From: Cochliopodium minus | Taxonomy: Eukaryota > Discosea > Himatismenida > Cochliopodiidae | Direction of reading: 5' to 3' | DNA length: 42,096 bases | Assembly: GCA_024220525.1 (NCBI GenBank) | Contig: JAMYWO010000211.1 | Location: 1-42,096, forward strand | In this document: one piece after another, positions 2,721 to 37,320 of the stretch | How the letters are laid out: each line of letters starts with the position of its first letter | Position numbering within the stretch: the stretch's first letter is position 1 | Translations under genes and position numbers: made by a program | Notes under the pieces: generated by a model | Told to the model about the DNA's origin: nothing | What the model saw: the letters and a program-made list of their open reading frames with translations, nothing else | Databases searched by the model: none

Positions 2721-5700
2721 ATGTTGAAATATTTGTTTGGATTGTTATTTATTTTGGTGATTTTAACAAAAGAGGCTGAGGCATGTAGTTTGAATGCTGC
2801 TGGAGTAATAACAAATCAGGTTTTATGTGTATTTGTTGTTGGTGCAAAAGTACAAGTATCAGTGACAAGTGGTAGAACAGCGACCTTTGGTCTAGAAGTG
2901 ATTGCAAATTTTTCATCTTTGGCACCTCCTTTTAATCCAAGTGCAACACTATCCAATTTTTTAATAGAAACAGGAGATGCAACATCACCAAATATCACCG
3001 TTCCAGGAACGAATTATAACTGTGTTAGCATTGGTTCATATTCCAGATGCACAGCTTCTGTTACTCACACATATTCTGCTTCCAGATCGATATTTGGTTA
3101 TACTTGGCATGTTTTATCAACAAGAGCTTCCCCTTTCATTTCTTATTCCAATATTAATACAACTACTTTTGATTTCAATATGAAAGGAAATGTCACTGTT
3201 GATAATTTGTCTGGTACTTCTCCTTTACTTGCTTCCACATCATATATTGGAACCACTCCTGAAAATCCTTTATCAATAGGGACTGGTACAAATTGTATTT
3301 TGGCACCTGGGTTTTCAAATGATTTATTCACCCAAGTTACAACAAATGGGGGGGTAACTTTTTGTACTGTTGATTCTGTGTTGGATAGATATCCTTCATC
3401 TTTTGTAAAGCTTATAATTTCTTTGGGAAGTGTGAGAGATGCTCAATCTGTTGTTTCTTTTGCGTTTGTACCACCATGTTGTAGAGATCAAAACACAAGA
3501 TTAGTTTTCAGCACTTTATTTACTAACACCACTTTTATTAATTGTTTTACTCCTGCTGTTGATCCTTTTACTAATGTTACTTTTACAGGAGGATGTGGAA
3601 ATGTTTCTGTTTCTTCCATCAACAACACATTGGAAGCATACACTTGTGGTACATTGAATAAAACCACCACTATTTCGGACACTTGTATTAATAATTTGCA
3701 GACTCAGACCCAAACTATAGTTGTGGTTGGTACAACACCAGATATAAAAGTGATTGAGACAGGTTTATCACTTTTTGGCCCAAATCCTACTGTATCATAT
3801 AATTATAAGTGTAGAGAACAAGTAACCCCAAGTATTGTGGATACGCTCTATGCTTCAGACCAGTGTATCCCATATAACCTCACCATTAATGTCTCTGAAG
3901 TTTTTAGTAATCAGTCTCTTTCAAATTCTCTTTGTAAAAATGAATTTGTACAAGTAAGAACTTACACTGCAAGTGATTTGTGTCAGCATTCTAGAACAAA
4001 AAGTGAAATTTTCCAAGTTTTTGATAATATAGCTCCTGTTTTCACTTATATACCTCCTCCAACCCAAAGTGCTACTTGCAGATCAGAGCTAATTACCTAC
4101 AATGTCAATGGTACCGATAACTGTCTAGATCCAATCCAGGTTCTCTATTCTCAAAGAGTGGTAGGTGGATTCTCGGATGGGTGTGATAACTTGGGTGTTT
4201 TCAATCAAACTTGGGTAATTTCTGATAATTGTGGTAACATGGTCTCCACCACTCAATATGTTTATCTAAATGATACTGTTGTTCCAACATATACGGGACT
4301 ACCAACCAATTTGGATGATCAAGCTTTATCATGTCAAAATGATATTCCCACCAATTTTGTTTATGTTCAAGATAATTGTGATCCTACAATCCAAACAATT
4401 ATACCTCAAACCACCTATGTTGGAGGAGGATGTAATATAAACATTACTCAAATATGGAATATTTCTGATGCTTGTGGTAACAGTGCTGGAAATTTTTCAA
4501 AGAAATACATCATCAAAGATGTCATTCCTCCTTCTTACTCTGTTTTGGGAGATAATCAAACACTTCCCTATAGCTTCAATGTCAGCTATCAATGCGTTTC
4601 CCAACCTCCACTCTATAATCCTCCTACTCTTATTGCTACTGATGAATGTACTGGATCCCAAGTCCCTGTCATTTATACATTCACAGAAACAAAATATAAT
4701 GAGAATATAAGCAATCCTCTATGCTTGGGAAATCTTGTCAGAACTTATAAATGGACCACCAATGATGGATGCCCAAATTATAATAATATCACTGAAATCA
4801 TCACCATAGCAGATACCACCCCTCCTCAGTTTTATAATTATCCTTCCAATGATACTTTTTATCAATGTTTTGCTGATCTTCCTCCTCCTGGTACTGTAAT
4901 TGCATCAGACAATTGCGATTCCACAAATGTGACCACCTTTTTCCAAGGAGAAACCTATTCTACTTGTGGTAATGTAACCTCTTGTAACAACAAGAAAATT
5001 GTTTACAGAACTTGGAATTCCACTGATAATTGTGGAAATACTGGTTTTTTAACTCAAAGATTGGTAAACAATAATAATTTTTAAATTAATTTAATAGTAA
5101 TATTTCAATACTAAATTAAAGATGGTAATGGATGATACTGCACCTATATTTAATGAGGATTGGGAGAATATTAAACCTGGTATAATTCCATGTGATCAGG
5201 TTCCATTTTTTAGAGCTCCATGTCGTACAGCATCAGATAATTGTGGGGGATCAGTTAATGTAACAACAAAATTTTACGGAAGTTTATCTTCTCCCAGTGG
5301 ATTGATCATTGATTATATTGCAACAGATGAATGTGGAAATACTAATTTGGATAGACACATTGTTAAATCAGATTGTCCATCTGCAATTGATGGATTGTAT
5401 CAACCAATTTTGGCTAGCTATGAAATAAATCCTCCAAAGTGTAGACCTTTGTTACAAATCCCTGATTCTAATTCTCTTACTCCAACCATCACTGTCAAAC
5501 CAGAAGATCCTTCTCTTAGAAATTGTACTCTCATCAATGGAGTATACAATTGCCAAAATAGAACTTCTTTTAGCACAGATACAAACGGAAATGTAATTGT
5601 ATTGCCTTATCCTGTTGACAATACTCCTCCTCCCCCTTATCCTTTTTGCACAGGAAGAAGAAAAAGAGATTTGGTGTATGAATCATTATATCATCAGTTG

Positions 5701-12385: not shown

Positions 12386-15300
12386 TTATCCAATTAATTT
12401 TGAAATGGAAGGAGGGATTTTTAAGACAGATATAATGTGAGAAAGGGATTCTTGAAGTGGAGTGTTCTTGATTTTGTTTTGTATTTGTTTTCTGTAGAGC
12501 AAAATAGTTTTATAGATTGTATCAAGAGGTCTATCATTGAATTGACCAGCGATGATAGTTGTGGATTTAGATAATGAGTTGTTTTGGGATATTAGATCAA
12601 GTTGATGTTTCAATAGAGGAAGATTTAAGGAAATCCATTCATTCAAGGGAGATAAGTGAGGTTCTTTTTCATGGTAATGAATATTGTTCGATAAATTTTG
12701 GAGGGTTCTTGCGATCATTGTGAGAGTTTTTCTTACATTTTTATCCAAGGGAGAATTAATAGATATGATATGGTATGTTTCAGGTGATACAATAGCAGGG
12801 CAAAAAAATCTCAAAAAGAGAAAGCCACCAAGAGAAATTTCTTTGTTTTTTGGATATTTTTTTCCAACTTCCCTTCCAAGAACGTAGCAAATGTTTTTCA
12901 TCTCATCAGGCAAATGAGAAAAACCCTCAAAGATTTTTAAAAGGAACATTTGGCAAACTTCTTTTAAACGAGAAACGTTATGTGAAAGAACAGAAACATC
13001 AGTGATCAATTTGGGATCTGCTAAAAAAGAAAGAGGATCGTTTAAAATGAAATTTATGCAAGGTTTGAGAACATTTCTCAAGAAATTTCCACCAACCATA
13101 TTGGAGTATATTCCCAATACTTTGGAGGCGAGTCCATTGCTCCTGAACAAAGTTGTTTCAGTTGAATTTACGACTTCTTCTACAATAAAATATTCCCATA
13201 AAACACTCATTCTATTATTTCTGTGGAAAATAGTGACCAAGGAAGTCAAAAAAGAATCAGCTTCTCCTGAAGGGATCACTTCGCAAATACTTTTAGTCAA
13301 ATCAATTTGGTTTAGATCTCCTACGATCATGTTTTCCAACTTGTTTCGAGCTTCCAACTTTTGAGGAGAGTTTAAGTGGGAAACATCTTCTATGACTTGA
13401 ATCCATTTCCCTTTCCCTGTTTTTTTAAGTTTTTGTTTTTGATAGAAAACAACTCGAATTTCTTTTCTCTCCCTTTCTTTTTTCACTTCATCTTTCTTTT
13501 TATCTTGGTGTGTAAAAGAGTTTTTTAAAAAAGAAGAAGTATCCGTATTGGGTGCAACATTTAAAGGATCATTCAAAGTATCTTTATTAAAATTTTTGAT
13601 TGGAGAAGAAGAGAAGATTTGAAGAGAATGTCGAGAATTCAGATTGGGAAGAGTATGATTCCTCGTATTGTTTGGATCTTGTTTGATCATTTTTTTAAAA
13701 ACTTTTTTGGGAGGGAATTTTTTGGGAAAAGAATTTTTACGAGGGGCTAGTTTTTTAATAATTTTTGGATTAGAGTTTGTAGAAAAAGTTCTATTCATCT
13801 CACTCATTTCACCTAAAGCATGCTTGCTGTTTGAAAAAGTATCCACGTTCATATCGGAAATCTTACTTGAACTCCTCATAGTATTACTTTTGAAATTGGG
13901 AACAAGTTGGGGTTTTTGGGGAAGAGGTCTATTTACATTTTTGGGAATATTGTTACCAGTAAAGTTGTATTGGTTATCTCTTTCATTCTTACAAAATGTT
14001 GGGTTAATCACATTTAAATTATCATTATTTCTATTAATGTTATTATCTGTTATATTTTCATTTCTATCGTTAATTTTATTATCTATTGTATCATTAAATT
14101 CATTTCTATGATTAAATTTATTATCATTGATTATATCGTTATTAATTTTATCGTCATTAATATTACCATCAGTTTTATCATCCTTTCTATCGTTATTAAT
14201 TTTATCGTCATTAGGATGAGAATTATCGAAAGGTTGATCGAAAATAGAAGGTCTGGAGGGGGGAGAAAGAGAATTGGAGATGGAGAGAGTGTTGTAGATA
14301 GAAGATCTCTCAAGAAACCTGTTATTAGAAAGATTAAATTCACTTCCATGCGTAAAGGATCTCGTTTTTCTGAATATATTCTCACTTTGAATGAGAACAT
14401 AATTTATTGATTCAACATCTTCTCCTACATATCTGAATTCAAAATTGTCTGTTTTAAATTCTTCCACTCTATCTATCTTTATATTCACCACTATTTTTCA
14501 ATATAATTTTAAATTTATATTTTTACATTTTACATTTTACATTTTATATTTTACATTTTATTAATTTTTTTTGAGTGTTTATTTTCAAACAAAATTATAA
14601 TGATTTTTAATTATTCTATTGATATTTTTATATTTTAATTTCGTAAAAAAAAAGTTTACAAAGATTATCATCAACGAGAGTATCAGTAGAAAGAATGGGA
14701 GAAGAAGAAGATTGAAATAGAGAAGAAAAAGAGGGGAGAGTTTCGATGAAAACACGAGTTTGAGGATTAGAATCGAGAAACATGGCCTGCAAGTAAATGG
14801 GGATCATGCCTTCTTCATCAATGGCAGTAGTATAACTGAAATAAGGAATTCCTTTGAAATTTCCTCCCATTCCTAATTGGTTTTGAGAAATGGTGTTTTC
14901 TAATGATTCTACCCAGTCGGTATACTCACTTTCCTCTTTGGTAGAAAAAAGAAAGGTGTCCAATGATTGCGTTTCATTTTTTTCGTTGTATTTTTTACAA
15001 GTGATGATGAAATGAAAGTTGGATAAAGGAGCCACTGTACAGTTTTCCAATTTCAGTGTGATCAAAGCTTGAGATTTGTTCACATTGCTTAGTGATTGGG
15101 CTTTGTTAAATATATAGAGATGCTTGGGAAATAAAATCATCCATTTTTTCACTTTATCATGTGTAACCCATCCATATTTCTCCATCCCTTCCTCTTTGTT
15201 TGCTTTTTCTATCCCTTTTTTTTAAAAAAAATAAAAAAAAAAAAATTTAATGTAAATAACTGTAATGATGTATACAAGAATAGCAAACCTTGTTGTAGTA

Positions 15301-17822
15301 AATAAGTCCAAGAAATCCTATCTTCAATAGTTTTACAGGTTAATGTGGCAACATGTTTTTCTTCCAAAGAAAGAATAGTAAAACTATTTTCATTGAACGA
15401 AATAGTGCACCCACACAAATCTTTGTTGAACAAGAAATATAGGAGCTGGTCAATAATCAAAGAATAATGAATACTTTTATAAAAAAAAAAAGAAGGAAAA
15501 AAAAGGGTACAGAATCATCTTTGTAACATAATAAACGATCATTCCTTATTAAATAAAAAAGGGAGAGGTCTTCTTTATTTAAGAGATAGCCATTTTTAAG
15601 ATTGTCCGTTATTTCAAATTCACCTTGATTTTTCAAGGAATTCAACTCATGCGATGCCCTCATGATCGATTTATGAATAGAATACACCCAATCTTCTTTT
15701 TCTGTTTTCTTGCTATCTCCTTTCGTTTCGCTCACTTCAAAGTTTAATACATTTCCTATTTTAAAAATGAAATGATATAAAATAAAATAATTTAAAAATA
15801 TAATCATTTTATAATGATTATAAAAATTCTTTAAAATTAAAAATTCTCAATTTTTTTCTCTATAACATATGGAAAAATAATTACATGTATGTATATCAAT
15901 TGTATATTAGAAGAGATATCTCCAATTAAAAAGATGAATGATTTTTTTATCGTGTTAAAAATATGTGTCAGACACATATTAAAAAGATAAAATTTCCCCT
16001 TATGTTTAAATAAAAAAATAGTATTTCTTAATTTTATAATGAAAATTTGTTAGTAAAAATGATTGTTAATTGGGATATAAAAATTGATCCAAATTATATG
16101 GAGCAGATTAAATTCTCACAAAAAAATTTTCAATATTGAATTTATAAAGAAATGATAGATAAATTTCGAAGTTAAGAATGAATGAACTAAAAGAAGGAGA
16201 AAAATACCGTCAGTGGGATATAAGGTAAAAGAAGAATCAGAGAGATCCCTCACAGAAGATCCTACAAGCGAAAGAATGCCCTGGTGGCCAAAAGGAGGTT
16301 CATGTTTGTCAAGGTGAGATTTGTCGTACCATCTAAGAACATTGTCTCTCAACCAAAACCACTTTTCTTTTTTATTTTTGAACAGAAATCCTTTTTTTTC
16401 CAAACTTTCGTACTCTCTCTCCTCTGTTTTCTTTTCTATACTGTTGTCAAAGGTAGTTAGCGGATGGACAAGAGGACCATAAGTGATAGATTTCCTTTTG
16501 GATAAATTAGAGAGAAGTGTGAGGGTTTTTTGAATGGAATCAACCCATTTTGTTTTTGATACTTCGGTAGTGCATTGTAATTCATATTCTCCAAAAGAAG
16601 TTTTTATTTTGAAATCATGTTTGTTTATCCCTTTCACTGCGCTCCCTGAGTATAGTACTATGTGCTTTTTCACTTTACTTGGATGTATCTTCTCCTCTCC
16701 CTCTTCTTTTTCTTTTACAAATAATATCACTTCCCTATCTAATTTTTTTTTATTTTTTTTATTTTTTTTTCAAATTATTTATTTGTTACCTAACACTGTC
16801 CAATATTTTTTTTTATCGAAAAACAAAAAACCTTCACATTCAATCTTTGTTGTTTTCATATCCTCTGATAAGACTTTTTGTATACTGCGTTTCTGATATA
16901 GATCATCTAAAATCTTTTTAAAAGAAGAATTATAAAGATCATTTTAAAATGATAAATAAATTCTAGCAAAAAAAAAAAAAAAGAAAGTATCAATTTTACA
17001 ATATCCTTAGTTTCAATTTTAGAAGAGGAAATAGACTTTTGGATCATGGAAATCCATTCAAATTTTTCTGTATCATTTTTTGCAATAAAAGTTAATTTTT
17101 GTTGTATAGTCTTTACAATGAAAGAACTTTCATCGGAAGGATCTTCTCCCACAGAGGAATTCAGCAAAGAAATTGCTTCCAAAACTTTGGTATCATTATC
17201 TTTTTGTAGACAAATCAGTGAATCATTTTTCAAGATGCAAATAATCTCTTTTTTCCTTTCTTTGTTTAACAATATCCCCTTTTTTTCAATATGCTACAAA
17301 AATATATTCAAATTAGTTATTAAATTAGGTGAATGTAATTTGAATACCATTGATATATTAATTTCTTCAAATTCTTTTTTGTTTTGAACATCACAATATT
17401 TTTGCAAATCTAAAAACCATTCAACCAGGAGAGGATTATCATCAAAGATCACCTCATAATTCCGACCCAAAGGATTTATAATAATTATTTTATTTGATCT
17501 CCTTGAGATATTGCTTGATTTTAAAGAGATATGATCAATAGACCTTGCCAAAAAATCAAATCCTTGAATATCCTTTTTGGATCAAAATATAGGATAATAA
17601 ATGAAAAAATAAAAATTATTTAATTTACCATTGAAATATTTGATCCCTTTTCAAAGATATATAGCTCTCCATTATTCAATAATACAAAAATTAATATTTT
17701 ATTCCCATTAATCTTCAAATTGGAACATCTCAAAATCTATAAGAGGAATATATGATAACATATATTTCTAGATTGGTGTTTTTTGAAAAAAATAAATTTA
17801 CTTTTCTGATTTGAGAATCCAT
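12386..17822 (-). CDS. Multi-PH RasGAP
   Basis: Ten phase-consistent exons (17802-17822, 17629-17736, 17348-17572, 17000-17293, 16790-16913, 16208-16738, 15511-15755, 15289-15445, 14660-15214, 12386-14490) encode about 1454 residues. The first ~750 hold a chain of about six PH-like domains; most show the late Trp helix (VEWFLDLQ, FEWISMIQ, TKWVDSIQ, EDWVYSIH, RISWTYLLQQ, TDWVESLE). An Asn/Asp-rich linker follows, then the RasGAP domain: arginine finger LFRSNGLASK (Arg about 1203) and signature FLFLRFFCPAIVSP. It should switch Ras off at membranes, the PH array giving lipid targeting. The apparent start at 14491 is only an internal GTG; the exon is entered by splicing. The start chosen at 17822 encodes a 7-residue first exon (MDSQIRK). 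It diverges from PABP, 141 bp away. Confidence 0.88.
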
Positions 17823-26895: not shown

Positions 26896-29745
26896 ATGCA
26901 ATCAATTGAAAATCAATTGAGAGCAATATCAGTTAATAGTAGAAAAGTTAATACAAATATAAAAGCGTCTGCAGAAAGAGCCATTTTATTTTTGCATAAT
27001 TTTAGGAAAAATCAAGGATCATCAAATGATAATATTTCTTTATTATCTGAAAATTCTCCCATTCTTTTGGAACCAATATTGTTATCATTTAAAACAAATG
27101 ATACTCTTTTGATTACAACTTCAATCACTGCTGTTCAAATTTTATTTTCACATAAAGCAATTTCATTTGTAAAATTTTTCAAATGGATAAATTAATTTAA
27201 CCTTTTCATTATTATCATCAGGATTCCACCCATCTTGTCATTGATTCTTTGAAATTATTAGCATTTAATAATTCAAGTTTTATAAATGAAGTGGTGCAAT
27301 TAAAATTATTGCAAACAATAGTGACCATTTTGACCACATGCGAAATTCATGATAAAACATTATCAAATGCTTTACTAATTTGTTTCAAATTATATCAAAG
27401 GAAAGACCAAAAAAATTTATCAGTAATGAGCACTGCATCTGCATCAATAAGGCAATTGATAACAATGATTTTCGATAATGCTACCCAACAACTCTTTCCT
27501 TCTCTTTCTTTTGAGAATTCAGAAGAGAATGAATTATTTCGTAAATTGGAAAGCGCAGAAACAATGGAAGAAATGCCCCTCATCTTTGCGGATGCCTACC
27601 GTCTTTTAAATGATTTGTGTCAATTATCGATAGGAGATTCATCAAATTGGTTATTAATGGAGAACATAGAAACTTTCTTTTCCTTGGAGTTAATTGAATC
27701 CATCCTTTCCAAAAATAATTCTCTTCTCTTTATTCATTCCAAACATTTTAGAAGGATCATCACCGATAGAATTTGTCCTCTCATTTTTGAGTCTTTAAAA
27801 ACTAAAAGTGATTTCAAAATAATGACCCGTGTTTTAAAAATAGTTTGCAATCTCATTTGTCATTTTCATTCCATCCTTGTACCTTTAATTTATTCTTTAT
27901 AATTCTTTTCATTTATTTTTATTTTTATTATTTTTATTATTTTTTATTTCATTTATTTGATTTTATTATTTATTTTTTATTTTTAAAAACGAAAAGGTGG
28001 CAGAAACAGAAGTGTTGATATCAAAGTTGATAAGATTTTTGGAATCGGACAATTCATTATGGCTTCACACATTAGTATTAGAAATATTTCATTCTATTAT
28101 TCAGTCTCCTTCTCTCTTACTCCTATTTTATATCAAATATGATTTACGTGGTTTGCTTCTTTTTTATTTTTGAATTAATTATATCCATAAATTAATATTA
28201 AATTTTTACATTAATATTTTTTTTACTTAATATTTATTTTTATATTTTACATTTTTTTTTATTTTTATTTTTATTTTGACATTTTATTTATTTTTTAAAA
28301 AAAGAAGATCAAAACAGTGAATCAGGGTTACTGTTTAAAACGATAATACAGGCACTGGGAAGATTTGCGCAGATAGTGTACACATGGACAGAAGAACTTG
28401 GGTTTTCTTCAAAAGAAAAGAAACAAACAAGATTAATTGACATGGCTTATCTCCATGACCCTCCTTTCCTTGAAAAAACTTATGTTTCTTCCCTCACTGT
28501 TGATTCTTTTCTCTCCATTGTTGATTCTTTATCCTCCATCTTTCATTTCAATCTCCTCAAAGATAACAAGCTTGATAACAAGCTTGATAATAAAGATTCC
28601 AATAGTAATATAATTTCCCAAAATGAAAATAAAAGAAAACTCATCCGTACAGAAAATGAAGAAAAGAAAATAGAAAAAGAAATTGAAATTATTAAAAAAA
28701 TAGAAAAAGATGACAAGATCAATAAAGTAGAAAAAGATGATAATATCAAGAAAGTAGGAAAAGATGACAAAGTAGAAAAAGATGACAAGATTAAGAAAGT
28801 AGAAAAAGATGATAATATCAATAAAGTAGAAAAAGATGACAAGATTAAGAAAGTAGGAAAAGATGACAAAGTAGAAAAAGATGACAAGATTAAGAAAGTA
28901 GAAAAAGAAAATAGTAGTAATAAGAAAATAGAAAAACAAGTATTGATAGATAAAGAAAATATGATAGAAAAACAAGTACTGATAGGAATGATACAAACAA
29001 GTTGGCCAAGTTTAATGGCATCCCTATCTATGTTTTTATCAAAAACAAATTATGAACATCAAATTCAAAGTATTTTAAATTCTCATCAGTCCCTCATTCT
29101 TATTTGCGGTTCTCTTCTTCTTTCTACTCCCACCATCGCTTTTCTCACTTCTTTTTCCAATCATTGTCTTCCTTCCTCTTCTTCCTCTTCTCTTCTTCCC
29201 AAACTCAAAAAATCTAAAAAAAAAGAGGGGTACCTTTTTTCTAATTTATTCAATTTCTAATTTATTAATTATTATTCAATTTCTGATTTATTTGTTGAAT
29301 TTGTTTATTTCTTGTTTATTTTTAATTTTATATTTATCTTGTTTATTTTTAATTTTATTAATTTTATTTTAATTTTGTTGAATTTATTTATTCTTTTGTT
29401 TATTTTTAATTTTATATTTATTTTATTTAATTTTATTAATTTTATTTAATTTTATTAATTTTATTAATTTCATTAATTTCTTTATTTGATAAATTATTAT
29501 TTAATTTGTGTTTTTATTAAAAAAAAAACCTTATAGAGAGAGCAAAAAAAAATTAATGAACATAATAGATACAAAAGAAAGTGGGAGCAACAATAATAAT
29601 AATAATAACAAAATGAGTAATAAAAATATTCAATCAATTAAACTATTATTAAATGTGACACATTGTATGGGAGATTTATTAGATGTGGAGTGTTGGTATA
29701 TTTCTTTTCAAGTTTTGCAACAATTTCATCTTCTCCTTCTCCTCA

Positions 29746-29780
<35 letters not shown>

Positions 29781-31187
29781 CTCCTCACTTCTTCTTCAGT
29801 TGTAGATTCCGGTGATGAAAATACTGACAATAATCTCCAAATCAATAATATCAGTAATAATACTATTAGCAATATGAATAATAATAATAATAATAATAAT
29901 AATATGAGCAATAGTAATTTGAGTAGAGAGGAAAATTCATTTCAGGAAACGATGATGACGATGATGGGGGGCACAGAAAAAGAAATGATGAATGTGTCTG
30001 GAAACAATTTGTTAACAATGCTTCAACATTCAGAATTTGTTCAATACGGGAATGAAATAAAAATAATCAAAAGTGGAATAGAAAATACTTTTAAAAGTAC
30101 AAAGTATTTACTTGATTCTTCTCTTCTTTCTCTTGTGAAAGCTCTTACCAAATTATCGTTGGATTCTATCAATTCTGAAAATAAATTGATTTCTTTCAAA
30201 ATTTATCCCATTCAAAAACTCTACCTTCTCATTTCCAACAACATGTCTCGTTTACCCTTTATCTGGAAAGAAGTGGAATCTCATTTTCTTTTTTTATCCA
30301 ACTTGAAAGATTCTGACATTCGTTTCCCTTCTGTTGATCTCCTCACCAAAATCATTTCCAATTACTTTCTCTTTCAATCTTCCTCTTCTTCTTCTTCTTC
30401 TTCTTCTTCTAACAATAACACCATCCTACCTAATGAGGATACCGTTGTCAATCTCAATGAAAAAAAAGGAGAGATAGAAGAAGAAGGAGGAGGAGGAGAA
30501 ATAGAAGAAGGAGAAGAAGAAGAAGAAGAAGAAGAGGGAAAAAGAGGACAAAGTAAATATATAGCAAATTCAAAAAAGAAGAGGATAGAAGTAAAGTTGC
30601 TGGAATGTGTGGATTCTCTTTCAAAATCTACTTTTTCTGACACCAAAGAAAAAGCATTGCACTCTTTGTATGCTTTGTTAGAACAGTGTAATGGACAAAT
30701 ATTGTATGATACATGGCCTCTTATCTTGAGTATACTGGTGACAGTGGCAGTAAATGATGATAAAACTCTAATCAACATTTCTTTTCAAAGTGTTAAATTG
30801 GTTAGTAGTGAATACATGAATTCTCTTCCTGTTGATTGTGTTGCTTTACTTATCACTTGTTTGGGTTGTTTTGTCAAACAACAATCTGATATCAATATTT
30901 CCCTCACTTCTATTGGTCTCCTTTGGAATTTGTCTGATTTCATTGGTAAAAAATACCTCCTTCTCCCTCCCCTCCCTTCTTCTTCTTCTCTCCCTCCTTC
31001 TCGAACAATAATATTAGAAAACTTTGAAAATAAAAGTAATAGTAATACTAATAATAATAATATCAATAGTAATAATAGTAATAATAATAATATCAATAGT
31101 AATACTAATAATAATAATATCAATAATAATAATAGTAATAATAATAATATCAATAGTAATAATAGTAATAATAATAAAAATAATAAC

Positions 31188-31218
<31 letters not shown>

Positions 31219-34200
31219 TCAATAATAATAATGATAATGATGGTAATAATAGTAGTAATAATATAAGTAACAATAGGTTGGTTACTCTTTCTCCTCCCAA
31301 AAAAACACCTTCCCCTTCTCATAAGTTCCCCCCTTCTCACCATTCTTCTGTAGTGATCAAAAAAGAGAAAGAAGAAGAAAGAGGGGGAAGAGGGGGAGAA
31401 GAGATAGAAAGGTTATGGATAGGAGTATTTACAGAAATGAAGCAATTGTGTACTGAAAAAAGACCAGAAGTAAGAAATAGTGCAATAAGAACTTTTTATA
31501 AAGCTCTCCAAACACATGGTCCTTCTCTTTCTGTGGGAGCATGGGAATTGTGCATCAAACAAATTGTCATTTCTCTTTTAGAAGATGTCAATCATTCTTC
31601 TCTCAAATCTTCCCTTCTTTTCAAACCCTCTCTCCCCTCTTCTACTCCCTCCCCTCTTCCTCCTTCCAAGGAAAAAGAAGTAACCAAAACTAGTAATGAT
31701 CTCCCCAATGATAACAATAAAGATTCTATCAACTCTAATACAAACAATAACCCTACTATCTCTACTACCACTACCAACACTACTAACAACATCATTACTA
31801 ACACGAATTCTCTCAATACTAGCTCTCCTTCCCTTTCTCTAGAATCTGAATTCAACAAGAGTACAAATAATAACACAAACACTACTAATAATCCTCATAC
31901 AAATACTAATAACCTTAATTCTAATGCAAATACTAATAACCTTAATTCTAATACAAATACTAATAACCTTAATTCTAATGCAAATACTAATAACCTTAAT
32001 TCTAATACAAATACTAATAACCTTAATTCTAATGCAAATACTAATAACCTTAATTCTAATACAAATACTAATAACCTTAATTCTAATGCAAATACTAATA
32101 ACCTTAATTCTAATACAAATACTAATAACCTTAATTCTAATACAAATACTAATACTAATAACCCTACTACATCTAATATAAATAAACAACAACTACAACA
32201 ATATGAAACACCAGAAAAACAATGGATAGAGACATTTGTTTTATCAGCAAGTGGGACAGCATCCGTGTTGAAAACTTTTTTTGAAAGATTAGGATATTTA
32301 AAGGTATTTCAAGAAGCATTTTTATTTTTATGTGAATATGTCAAACCATGGGGAAACATAAATAATAAAACCATTGCTTGTTCTTCCATCAATTGTCTTT
32401 CTCAACTCTTGTCTATTTTTGATGGAGAAAAAGTGAAAAAGAAAGAACATGAAGATTTATGGGATTCTTTGTGGTCATTGGCTTATTCTCTTTCTCTTTC
32501 CCTCACCTCTACTCTTCATTTCAATTCTATTCAAGGTCAATATCGAGGTGTTGATCATTCTGTTTTAGAATCTTTCGTCTCTTCCCTCATTCTCGCTCAT
32601 CATTCTTTCCTCTCTCCTTCTCCTTCTCCTTTTCATGAAGATCATAAAGTAGATCAAAATAACATCAACGAAATAGAAAGTAAAAGAGAAGTGGAAAGTA
32701 AAAGAGAAATAGAAAGTAAAAGAGAAGTAGAAAGTAATAAAGAAAGTAAGAGAGAAATAGAAAGTAAGAGAGAAGTAGAAAGTAATAAAGAAAGTAAGAG
32801 AGAAGTAGAAAGTAAGAGAGAAGGGGAGAAAGAAAAGATTTTGACAGATAAAGATATAAAAAAGGAAATGGAGATAATGTTCAATTTAACCAAAATTCCA
32901 CCACCATACAAAACAGAAACACTTATTCCTCTTCACAAACAAGTTCTTTCTTTTTATGAAAATGTACTTTTAGAAAATTCTTCCATAGAAACCATTCTTT
33001 TTTGTTTTGAATCTCTCATCAAAATGATTCTTTCCCCCTTTTCTTCTTTTTTCAAATCCTACTCTCTCTTCCTCCTTTCTCCCCTTCTTCTTCTCCCCAT
33101 CAATAAAGAGAAAGGGGAGAATAAAAAGAAAGAGAAAATAAGGATAGGAAAAGAAGAGAAAGAAGATCTTAATTTTATTGGTTTATCAAAAAAAGCATTT
33201 TCAGTTTTATCTCTTTTATTTTCAAAACCTTTCATACCCAATTCTTTTAAAGCAGAATATATTTTTTCTTTAATAAGAATCATTTCTTCTCTCATGATGA
33301 CCAAGTTTTCTCACTTCTCTCTTCTTCTTTGGTCTCATGCTGTTTCCTCTTTCGTTCTCCTTTCTTCTCTTTCCCTTCCACATATCAACTCTCATCGTAT
33401 TCACCTTTTTAAAATTTATTTTTATTTTTAATCTAATTCTTTTATTTTTTAATTTAATCCTTTTATTTTTAATTTAATTCTTTTATTTTTAATTTAATTC
33501 TTTTATTTTTAATTTAATTCTTTTATTTTTTAAAAAGAATATGAAAATGAGATGATAAAAAAAAAGATATGGAAAGAATTGATAAATTGTGCAGAAGAAT
33601 ATTTGATGAAAGGAGGAGAAGAAATAGAAAGGGGGAAAGTAACAGAGGAAATCATGAAAATGGAAGAAAAAAGTGACATAGAAATATTGGATTGTATTTC
33701 CTCTCATTTTTTACCAAATTGTCCTCCCATTCCTTCTCTAAAGAACCGCCTTGTGGAGATTTTAAAAATAGGTTGCCAATCTCAAAATAAAAGGGAACAT
33801 CTCGCTAGTGCTTCTTACAAAAATATGTTTTCTCTTTGTCATGTTCCCTCTTCCACCTCTCTCCCTAAATATGGTTTAACTATTTTTTTTAAAATTATTT
33901 ACTTTTATTTTTATTTGAATTTTTTAAAAGAGAACACCGCAGAATTTCAAGTGGCAAGCACAGTAGTTCCCATACTCCTTCAAATTTGTGAAGAAGTGTT
34001 AAGTAATTTTATAAATGAAGATAGTCAATCATTGGAGATCTCCAACTACAGAATTTCTGAAGTTAGACTCATTTTGTCTCAACTTTTGAAACTAGACCTT
34101 CATCCAAGTAAATTTTGTGTTTTATTTTTCTATAAACAAATAATCTCAATTTCTTAAAAGAATTTTTTAGGGATCCTCCTTCTGGTCCTCCTTTCGGGAA

Positions 34201-34462: not shown

Positions 34463-35669
34463 ATGTTTTTTAAAAAATTGGAATTGGGAGAAATAGAAAT
34501 AGGAGATTTGATAAATATCAAAGATTTTCCAAAGAAAGGGATGGTTAAATTTATTGGTAAATATTTGAATAATTTTCGAGATCGAAAAATAAATTTAATG
34601 TTCAAAAGGTGAAACACATTTCAGGTATAAACTTAATTTAATACAAAACAGCATAAAATTATTCGACCAATAGACCAGGAAAATGGATAGGTGTGATATT
34701 GGCGGAAGAAATAGGGAAGAATGATGGATCAGTTGATGGTAAATTTTATTTCAAGAGTAAACAGAAACATGGTTTATTCATTCCCTCCTTTGTTTGCACT
34801 CTCTATAAAAAAAATTCGAACCTTGGTTAACTTTTACAAAGAATTTTCAATTTTTATAAAGATTTTTTTCAGATTCAAAGGAAAAAGAGATGTACGATTC
34901 GATTTGTGAATCAGGAGAAGAGATTCAAAATGAAAAAATAATAAAAGAACGAGAAATAGAGGTGTCAGATAAAGGTGATCAAGAGGAAACAAAAGAAGAA
35001 TACAATAATTACGATGGAGAAAATGGAGAAAACAAAGTGTTAGAAAAAGAAGAAAGCAAAAAAGAAGAAAAACAAAAGAAAATTGAAATTAAAACAAAAG
35101 AAGAATGCTTGGAAGAATTTACAAGGGAATATGCAGGGATGATTTTGAGTGAAATTGAAAAACAAAATATAAACAAACAAAAAGAAACTTTTGAATTGAT
35201 TGAAAACTTGAAAAACAACATTAATCTCATCATTCTCATTCTCTCCAACAAATCTTTTTCTATTGATTCTGTCATTTCTGAACTTTTTAAAGAAATTGAA
35301 AAAATAAACGATTCTTTCTTGTTTATTGAAAAGATTGAGGGTTTAATTTCTTTGGTTCTAAGATCCTTGATTGAAATGGAAAAAATAGTGGAGTCCTCTT
35401 CCAATTCTTTTTCCAACTTTTATTGGAAAAATACTTTTGAATCAATCATGGTTTGTTAAATTTTAAATTTATTTTCTTTAAATTTCAATTTATTTAAAAT
35501 CTAAAAGACAAAAGAAAAAAAAAACACAAAAATGCCAGATCCCCCAAATTTTGATGAAATAGTTTTTTCAAGTGAAGAATTTTGGAATTTATTTCGTGAG
35601 GAAACACCAAACCAAACAATTTCCCAAGATAAATATAAAATTGATTTGGATGAATTATATAAATTTTAA
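34463..35669 (+). CDS. CAP-Gly domain protein
   Basis: Five exons, 34463-34556, 34609-34624, 34674-34825, 34873-35450 and 35508-35669, keep phase and give about 333 residues. The second is a 16-nt micro-exon supplying ETHF and part of an Arg; only with it does the text read VKFIGETHFRPGKWIGVILA, a proper CAP-Gly core. The microtubule-binding motif GKNDG sits at residues 51-55, followed by GSVDGKFYF and HGLFIPSF. CAP-Gly domains bind the C-terminal EEY tails of tubulin or EB1. The remainder is a Glu/Lys-rich stretch and a helical region (about 150-280) with no family I recognise. It is too short for a full dynactin p150. It could be a CLIP-like, TBCB/TBCE-like or lineage-specific protein. Its 3' end lies 31 bp from the kinase gene. 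Confidence 0.85.
34609..34624 (+). other. 16-nt micro-exon of the CAP-Gly gene
   Basis: The 16 bases between acceptor TTCAAAAG and donor GTATAA complete the CAP-Gly strand with Glu-Thr-His-Phe and two bases of the Arg codon. Skipping it would shift the frame and break the domain, so inclusion is expected to be constitutive. Confidence 0.85.
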
Positions 35670-35700
35670 TAAAACTTTTTCTTTATTTCTAATACAAATT

Positions 35701-37320
35701 TCAACTAATAACACAACAACATTTATTCTCTTTTGGAGAAAGGAGGGGTTGTTTTTCACTAGATAAATTTTGAGGAGGGAGAGAGGAAGGAGTGGGAGTA
35801 GTTTTTTCATTTTCACTTTTGAGAAGATCCCCCACCTTTTTTTGAAAAGAAAGATCATAAGTCATACTTTCAAAAGGATCTTTTTTGGTATCAGTGTTGC
35901 TGTAATCGCTAAGTTCACTGAGTGTGTCTGTTTTGTTTTCAATTGAATTGTTGTTGTTTCCATATTTTATAAAATTATTTACCAAATTTTCATTCATAGT
36001 TTTTAAGAAAAGATCAACCATTTGTTCACTATTTTCTTTATTTTTTTCTTTCATTTCTTGTTTTTTTTGTTGATATTTTTTAACCATTTTTTTGTATTCT
36101 TTACTTTCATTTAGAGAGAGTTTTTCAAATTTGAGAATAAATTTGTTTTCTTTGAGAAGAGAAAGAGAAGAGGGGCGGAGAGAAGGATCTTTAACGAGAC
36201 ATTTTGAAACAAATTCTTTTAATTTCTCTGAAAATTTTTTGTCCTGTAACTGAGGTGGTTCCAATCCAATTATTTTCATCACACTTTCTTTCATTGGTAT
36301 TTTAAAATATGGTGGATATGCTGTTGCAAGTTCTATCGCTGTTATTCCCAAACTTTGAAAATTTTTTTTTTTTTTTAATATTATATTCAAAGAAATCAAT
36401 TTTACCTCCAAATATCAACCTTTTCATTATAATTTTTTTTTAATAGTACTTCAGGGCTCATAAACAATCTTGTTCCAACTCTAAAATAAAATAAAATAAT
36501 TGAAAATTATTAAAAAAAAAATAATGTACGTTCCGGTCAAAGTTTTATTTTCATTGAGATTGTTGCTTACACCAAAATCAGTAAGTTTAACTTTTCCATC
36601 AACAGTCATTAAAATATTATTTCCTTTAATATCCCTGTGTACAATCCCATTGGAGTGAAGAAAACACAAACCTTTTAAAGTTTCTCTCAAAATTATGCTT
36701 ATGTGTTTTTCTTTATATTTCTTTAAATCAAAAAGATTAATTTTAATAAAATTTTATTTTATAATGTTGATTAAAATAATAATATTAATATTAATATTAA
36801 TTTTCTTTTCTGAAAAAATTGCCAAATTGAAAGGATCTCTCAGCATGGTGATAGTATTAAAATCACATAATTCCATTATTAACCAAATATATAGACCTTG
36901 AGCAAGACAACCATAATATTGCACCAAATTAAAATCCCTGCATTTCTTCAAGATTTCTATCTCATTTTTAATCAAATTTTTGTTGAAATTATCAACACCC
37001 ATTATCTTTATTGCAAATTTTTGTTTTGTATCATTTTGTATTGATTTAAAGACAACTCCAAATCCTCCTTCTCCAATTTGTTTTTCTAATTGAAATATTT
37101 TTTGAGGATCACCCACCCATTCATATTCACTATCCACACTAAAATTTTTTTTTACAAATGATGGTTGTGAGATGTTTAATCCTTTGGGGATTTGTTGTTT
37201 CTCTATAGGTTTTTTCCCTTTTTTCTTTAAATTTGGGGTGGATTTATTGTTTATCAATATGATTTGATCAAATGATATTTTTTGGGGGCTATTCATATTC
37301 AAATCTGATATTCCATTCAT
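35701..37320 (-). CDS. STE20-family kinase with C-terminal CaaX box
   Basis: Four exons (36823-37320, 36530-36720, 36406-36480, 35701-36352) give about 471 residues. After a 70-residue basic N-terminus comes the kinase: glycine loop GEGGFGVV (83-90), AIK with Lys105, HRDIKGNN (HRD 194-196), DFG 214-216, and GTRLFMSPEVL, the STE20 GT..WMAPE-type signature. LGITAIELATAYPPYF is typical of MST/GCK kinases. Catalytic residues are complete, so it should be an active Ser/Thr kinase. A coiled-coil-like Lys/Gln/Glu stretch follows, then a Ser/Pro tail ending KCCCVIS. CVIS fits a CaaX prenylation box and the two preceding cysteines could be palmitoylated. The first intron appears to be GC-AG (TTG/GCAATT to TTTAAAG/AAA); only that splice gives the family's spacing. 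Confidence 0.9.

Follow-up and report, generated by a model that had tools for sequence, protein, structure and literature searches.

A GCK-like STE20-group kinase of Cochliopodium minus ends in a CaaX box preceded by two cysteines, a putative membrane anchor

A protein kinase gene on the minus strand of a 42,096-nucleotide stretch of Cochliopodium minus DNA (referred to here as the window; it is a complete contig, C211, of the 44.65 Mb in 598 contigs that were searched as the genome, which is AT-rich and, from its intron-bearing genes, eukaryotic) was found to end in the residues CCCVIS. Judging from its sequence, we consider it likely that this GCK-like Ser/Thr kinase attaches itself to membranes via its own lipidated C-terminus. 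We infer the following lipidation, localization, and activation steps. A cytosolic farnesyltransferase (FTase) would add a farnesyl group to C468 of CVIS, after which VIS would be cleaved off and the cysteine would receive a methyl group, both at the ER/Golgi. A DHHC enzyme would then S-acylate C466 and/or C467, a modification expected to keep the protein at the plasma membrane or on endosomal or Golgi-derived membranes. A low-complexity linker of ~140 residues between the kinase domain and the anchor would let the domain reach membrane-bound substrates and let copies of the kinase activate each other in trans.

The kinase gene (35701-37320, minus strand) encodes 471 amino acids in four exons according to a splice model together with Pfam and PDB matches. 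The exons lie at 37320-36823, 36720-36530, 36480-36406, and 36352-35701, and across all 471 residues there is a single stop, at the very end. An in-frame stop is found upstream of the start ATG at 37320, with 20 codons between them. Introns 2 and 3 (49 and 53 nt) are both GT-AG, and intron 1 (102 nt, 36721-36822) was modeled as GC-AG, there being no suitable GT donor; it may be a true GC-AG intron or reflect a base error in the sequence. In either case, the CCCVIS end is untouched because intron 1 is located upstream and the terminal exon joins the kinase domain to CCCVIS unbroken. This exon (652 nt, 35701-36352), which is intronless in the model, carries the end of the kinase domain, including ...SLGITAIELATAYPPY..., followed in the same frame by the linker and the CaaX box. 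The initial annotation had the reading frame close with CCCVIS, and the corresponding codons (TGT TGT TGT GTT ATT AGT, 35721-35704, then the stop TGA, 35703-35701, minus strand) were indeed located in the same exon as the end of the kinase domain.

Splicing or stop-codon reassignment could in principle alter the true C-terminus, and the terminal exon does contain some donor- and acceptor-like dinucleotides, both GTAAA-/GTATG-like donors (e.g. GTAAATAA at 35982) and AG sites. We nevertheless give scarcely any credence to such an error in the gene model. The exon is coding-like in composition throughout, with an AT content of 0.70 as opposed to 0.89-0.92 in the three modeled kinase introns, and a poly(A)-signal-like AATAAA (35682-35687, minus strand) comes shortly 3' of the kinase stop, where AATTTGTATTAGAAATAAAG follows the TGA. 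In addition, TGA serves as a stop here: it ends 3 of 12 GTPase tails from this genome, in two cases directly after the prenyl motifs CSLL and CSIL.

A convergent plus-strand open frame (35532-35669, MPDPPNFDE...DELYKF, stop TAA at 35667-35669) ends 31 bases from the kinase stop, and AATAAA overlaps its TAA. We infer that this frame belongs, perhaps as the last exon, to a Mon2-like gene running toward the kinase gene on the plus strand (27249-33431), in which DCB, HUS, and Mon2_C domains scored above their cut-offs and HDS just below. The Mon2-like gene contains long asparagine-rich and other simple stretches. Elsewhere in the window, a RasGAP domain was matched on the minus strand (12386-16730), with PH domains upstream of it on that strand, and the plus strand at 2721-5084 encodes a protein that contains cysteines and resembles HYR weakly (20.5 bits, under the cut-off of 27).

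Pfam assigned a Pkinase domain to the spliced product with 214 bits, and the catalytic motifs GEGGFG, AIKI, HRDIKGNN, DFG, and SPE are all present after splicing, in agreement with the earlier description of a complete kinase. The assignment to the STE20 type was also borne out: the best 60 of 2738 PDB matches were to STK24/25/26, STK3/4, TNIK/MINK1/MAP4K, PAK, and TAO2, led by STK24/MST3 at 196.6 bits and followed by MST1/2 (~182), TNIK (~169), and PAK (~160). The STE20 activation-loop signature is GTPxWMAPEV; in the corresponding GTRLFMSPEV of the window kinase, the G, T, M, P, E, and V are kept and the remainder is changed. Pfam returned no match in the kinase to a SARAH or PDCD10-type C-terminal domain, the marks of GCK-II and GCK-III, and for residues 1-81 it returned no family at E up to 10 and thus no PBD/CRIB, the mark of PAK. 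An ISxPxxF...WxGxP string in the N-terminus is visible by eye only, and a CRIB was rejected there since neither a Pfam family nor a PDB match covers it. Because SARAH, PDCD10-type, and CRIB domains are all unmatched and the loop is divergent, the protein is classed by sequence as a GCK-like STE20-group kinase with no subfamily assigned.

The kinase C-terminus reads ...EKQPLLSPKENKCCCVIS. Given the gene model, C468 is four residues from the C-terminus and is followed by aliphatic a1 and a2 residues, and the two cysteines C466 and C467 directly precede it, the close spacing to the prenyl cysteine that is looked for in dual lipidation. A serine at the X position directs a CaaX box to FTase, and CVIS fits a farnesylation CaaX box. 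Genes for the relevant enzymes are encoded in the genome, including the transferase matching CVIS: FTase beta was found on contig C71 (279.7 bits compared with ~101 for GGTase-I), GGTase-I beta on contig C538 (363 bits), and DHHC acyltransferases in 18 exon-level matches, 17 of them above cut-off. The CaaX-type tail with two adjacent cysteines thus stands as first described, and it is accompanied by genes for these enzymes. For the later processing steps, the best Rce1-like match (51 bits) is a candidate only, because the family is broad and also matches 11 of 14 prokaryote controls. A six-frame search of the genome for ICMT (PF04140) returned no match, although an intron-bearing multi-exon gene can escape such a search, and no Rab GGTase beta was found among the PF00432 matches. 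N-myristoylation of the kinase was rejected, residue 2 being Asn.

Three adjacent cysteines could also be read as an S-acylation cluster of the kind present in yeast Yck2 or CK1-gamma, with the match to CaaX being incidental, and the genome does encode DHHC enzymes. There is a precedent for confusing the two: fungal casein kinase I is palmitoylated at its C-terminus, and this had once been postulated to be prenylation (PMC1175975). However, we regard anchoring by palmitoylation only as quite improbable. CVIS forms the very C-terminus, its a1 and a2 residues are aliphatic and its X is S, and an FTase beta is encoded. That soluble proteins often receive a first lipid ahead of S-acylation also counts against it.

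How often such a tail would arise by chance depends on whether DNA or protein ends are counted. As raw DNA, CCC-a-a-X followed by a TRA stop occurs 23 times compared with 20 in a reversed control, and followed by TAG 3 times compared with 8. The DNA count therefore proves nothing, because the pattern is no commoner than in the reversed control. As a protein end, CCC-a-a-X is expected only ~2.4e-7 times per protein from residue composition (30,453 residues of open frames, among them the window kinase and some frames that are not genes), which is far under one per proteome at any plausible gene number. One of the 22 TRA-stop matches besides the kinase is the end of a recognizable gene, a calponin-homology (CH) protein described below. 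The remaining 21 are not evident gene ends as judged by eye; 7 were judged from the short open frame only, 11 from ~960 bases, and 2 from ~500 bases, and the last one is L082. The more specific CCCVI-x-stop is found in 2 of all 26 matches (TRA plus TAG), and both sit at recognizable gene ends, those of the kinase and the CH protein. Among 101 ORFs with 150 codons or more, a set that includes non-gene frames and is enriched for kinase loci, 3 end in the less specific pattern C[VILMFAT][VILMFAT]X; the three are the window kinase, an intron read-through (L021), and an AT-rich frame (L057). The end of a PAK discussed below falls outside this background set, being too short for the cut-off and having S at a1. 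The low complexity of the linker and the control-level frequency of the DNA pattern would suit a CaaX box that is an unused, neutral chance terminus, but the composition-based expectation and the position of both CCCVI-x matches at gene ends make this very unlikely.

The initial annotation further proposed that a Ras-style lipid anchor would place the kinase permanently at the plasma membrane, and this part is not supported. Farnesyl-palmitoyl anchors are usually dynamic. Permanent residence at the plasma membrane does not follow from the tail because H-Ras, with an anchor of this type, moves back and forth between the Golgi and the plasma membrane (PMC10435254). Another destination could be indicated by EKQPLL (residues 454-459, 35740-35757, minus strand), a putative sorting signal that matches the acidic dileucine pattern [DE]xxxL[LI]. 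This motif may bind adaptors and thereby sort the lipidated kinase to endosomes or lysosomes, a reading that is compatible with self-anchoring and differs from it in destination only.

In the CH protein with the tail CCCVIL, ESQQLI lies about as far from the end as EKQPLL does in the kinase, in keeping with such endomembrane sorting. PI4KII-alpha likewise carries a dileucine and is sorted to endosomes or lysosomes. Its recruitment to membranes is by palmitoylation of CCPCC, and it is found at the TGN, endosomes, and granules (PMC3743005). On the other hand, dileucine motifs are short and degenerate, the PAK tail lacks one, and the idea that the kinase tail is homologous to that of the CH protein was rejected, as 629 of 5000 shuffles scored at least as high; among 921 real segments, 4 and 5 reach the score, and these may include the tails themselves. 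Endosomal sorting via EKQPLL remains a lead since the shuffling test gives no significant similarity between the two tails, and on balance we think it rather unlikely to set the destination of the self-anchored kinase.

The tail of the window kinase is not the only one of its type in this genome. An own-genome search with the kinase gave 41 matches, of which 3 are its own exons and the other 38 are fragments with 22-55% identity (best-scoring candidates); a family of close paralogues sharing the CCCVIS tail was rejected on this basis. A second STE20-type kinase (L037) was modeled on the minus strand at C31:85001-83432, with a partial PH domain (26.5 bits), a PBD (46 bits), and a Pkinase domain (229 bits), and its best PDB relatives are PAK2 and PAK1. 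This PAK ends in ...VVEIMIENSSCSIL (ENSSCSIL), 26 residues past the Pfam kinase match, and by sequence its CSIL is a GGTase-I-type CaaX. When the ends of five STE20-like paralogues were read by eye, window kinase aside (L043, L044, L055, L058, and L059), a CaaX was found in one, the PAK; L044 was counted as STE20-like solely from a 39% fragment match. L043, L044, L055, and L058 end without one. The MST3-like L043 (PDCD10_N match of 29 bits, the join being approximate) ends in ...DILKK, and L055 and L058, both PAK-like by eye, end in ...KLERGY and ...LRSQNY. Three further loci (L104-L106) showed no clear C-terminus. A CaaX scan at 57 kinase loci, many of them overlapping, with 1.5-kb flanks yielded 9 matches in open frames that span 30 codons or more. 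Two of these correspond to the one PAK gene, and the other 7 (6 distinct) are intron read-through or off-gene as judged by eye. The census of kinase tails covers terminal exons up to the limits of the 1.5-kb flanks.

Two other kinase loci are of note for their domain content. In L038 (C32, minus strand), LIM-domain sequence (69 bits for LIM when the translation was joined by hand) comes after the C-lobe of a STE20-like kinase, and the two may form a single gene. L034 (C158:62902 onward) has a kinase in one 1008-residue open frame and then F-box- and WD40-like sequence, as seen by eye, and the arrangement in Dictyostelium MEKK-alpha resembles it.

For comparison with GTPases, 14 regions were hand-picked from at least 164 Ras-family matches and 12 of them were counted, two of which (L098 and L099) share one tail sequence, with L098 having an in-frame stop upstream. 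The two left uncounted end without a prenyl motif (L101) or have no clear end (L103). Eight of the 12 tails are CaaL (CSIL five times, CSLL, CNLL, and CNIL), four have Rab-like cysteine ends, and X = S was found in none of the 12. The PAK tail is thus identical to 5 of the 12 GTPase tails. One Ras-family match (C1:633782-634150) lies within a frame reported open over 14,711 residues. The CH protein mentioned above (L080, C118:107002-109802; CH, 33.6 bits on a hand-joined translation) ends in ...ESQQLIPKEENGSCCCVIL and is a candidate for a prenyl tail on a protein other than a GTPase.

The window kinase probably acquired its CaaX tail within this lineage, as did the one PAK, and the two ends together suggest that the addition of a prenyl tail happened here in more than a single STE20 kinase. 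A broader possibility, which we put forward tentatively and hold as somewhat less probable than not, is that two STE20 subfamilies (GCK-like with CCCVIS and PAK with CSIL) and the CH protein with CCCVIL independently took up GTPase-style prenyl tails, such that effector kinases carry a lipid address of the same type as the GTPases by which they are normally recruited, and recruitment is no longer needed. If this is true, the difference between X = S and X = L would send the GCK-like kinase and the PAK via different transferases to different membranes.

STE20 kinases normally depend on GTPases, adaptors, or lipid-binding domains for membrane recruitment, and MST3 and MST1/2 reach membranes through partners. 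Among kinases with lipid anchors of their own, GRK1 and LKB1 are outside the STE20 kinases, CaMKI-gamma belongs to the CAMK group, and Yck2 and CK1-gamma belong to the CK1 group. Natural kinases with a CaaX are therefore already known, and the window kinase is a STE20 variant of that theme. What is new here is the second STE20 kinase (the PAK with CSIL) and the CH protein (CCCVIL) with such tails in the same genome. In the titles and abstract openings of the best literature matches, no naturally occurring STE20 kinase is shown to carry a CaaX of its own, and the main text of the Dictyostelium kinome paper, which reports 23 STE20 kinases, is without the words "CaaX", "prenyl...", or "isopren..." (PMC1420674). 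Scans of viral and of prokaryote sequences, with six exact peptide patterns each, retrieved no relative, which is not a fair test.

GRK1 (rhodopsin kinase) is a natural prenylated kinase (PMC11254824), as is LKB1/STK11 with the CaaX sequence CKQQ (PMC1175975). CaMKI-gamma (CLICK-III) is, like the window kinase, a kinase with its own C-terminal CaaX and further cysteines; it is prenylated at the CaaX first and then palmitoylated on other cysteines, and a mutant defective in prenylation spreads diffusely through the cytosol (PMC10435254). Its C474 is ~50 residues from the acylated cysteines 417-423, whereas the cysteines of the window kinase are contiguous. CK1-gamma and Yck2 are membrane-bound via S-acylation in the C-terminal region (PMC11417247). 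Unlike the window kinase, these two lack a CaaX. MST3/STK24 and MST1/2 (GCK-III and GCK-II) have the nearest solved kinase domains among the best 60 of 2738 matches (196.6 and ~182 bits), but the window kinase differs from them in having no match to their PDCD10-type dimerization or SARAH domains and in its activation loop. Another counterpart is artificial: PAK1-CAAX laboratory fusions join a STE20 kinase to a Ras CaaX box so that it acts at membranes (PMC8776968), and here this layout is found in natural genes, for a GCK-like kinase and a PAK. If these kinases are indeed self-anchored, evolution took the same shortcut as the PAK1-CAAX constructs, which opens the testable question of what a kinase loses and gains once membrane recruitment is built in.
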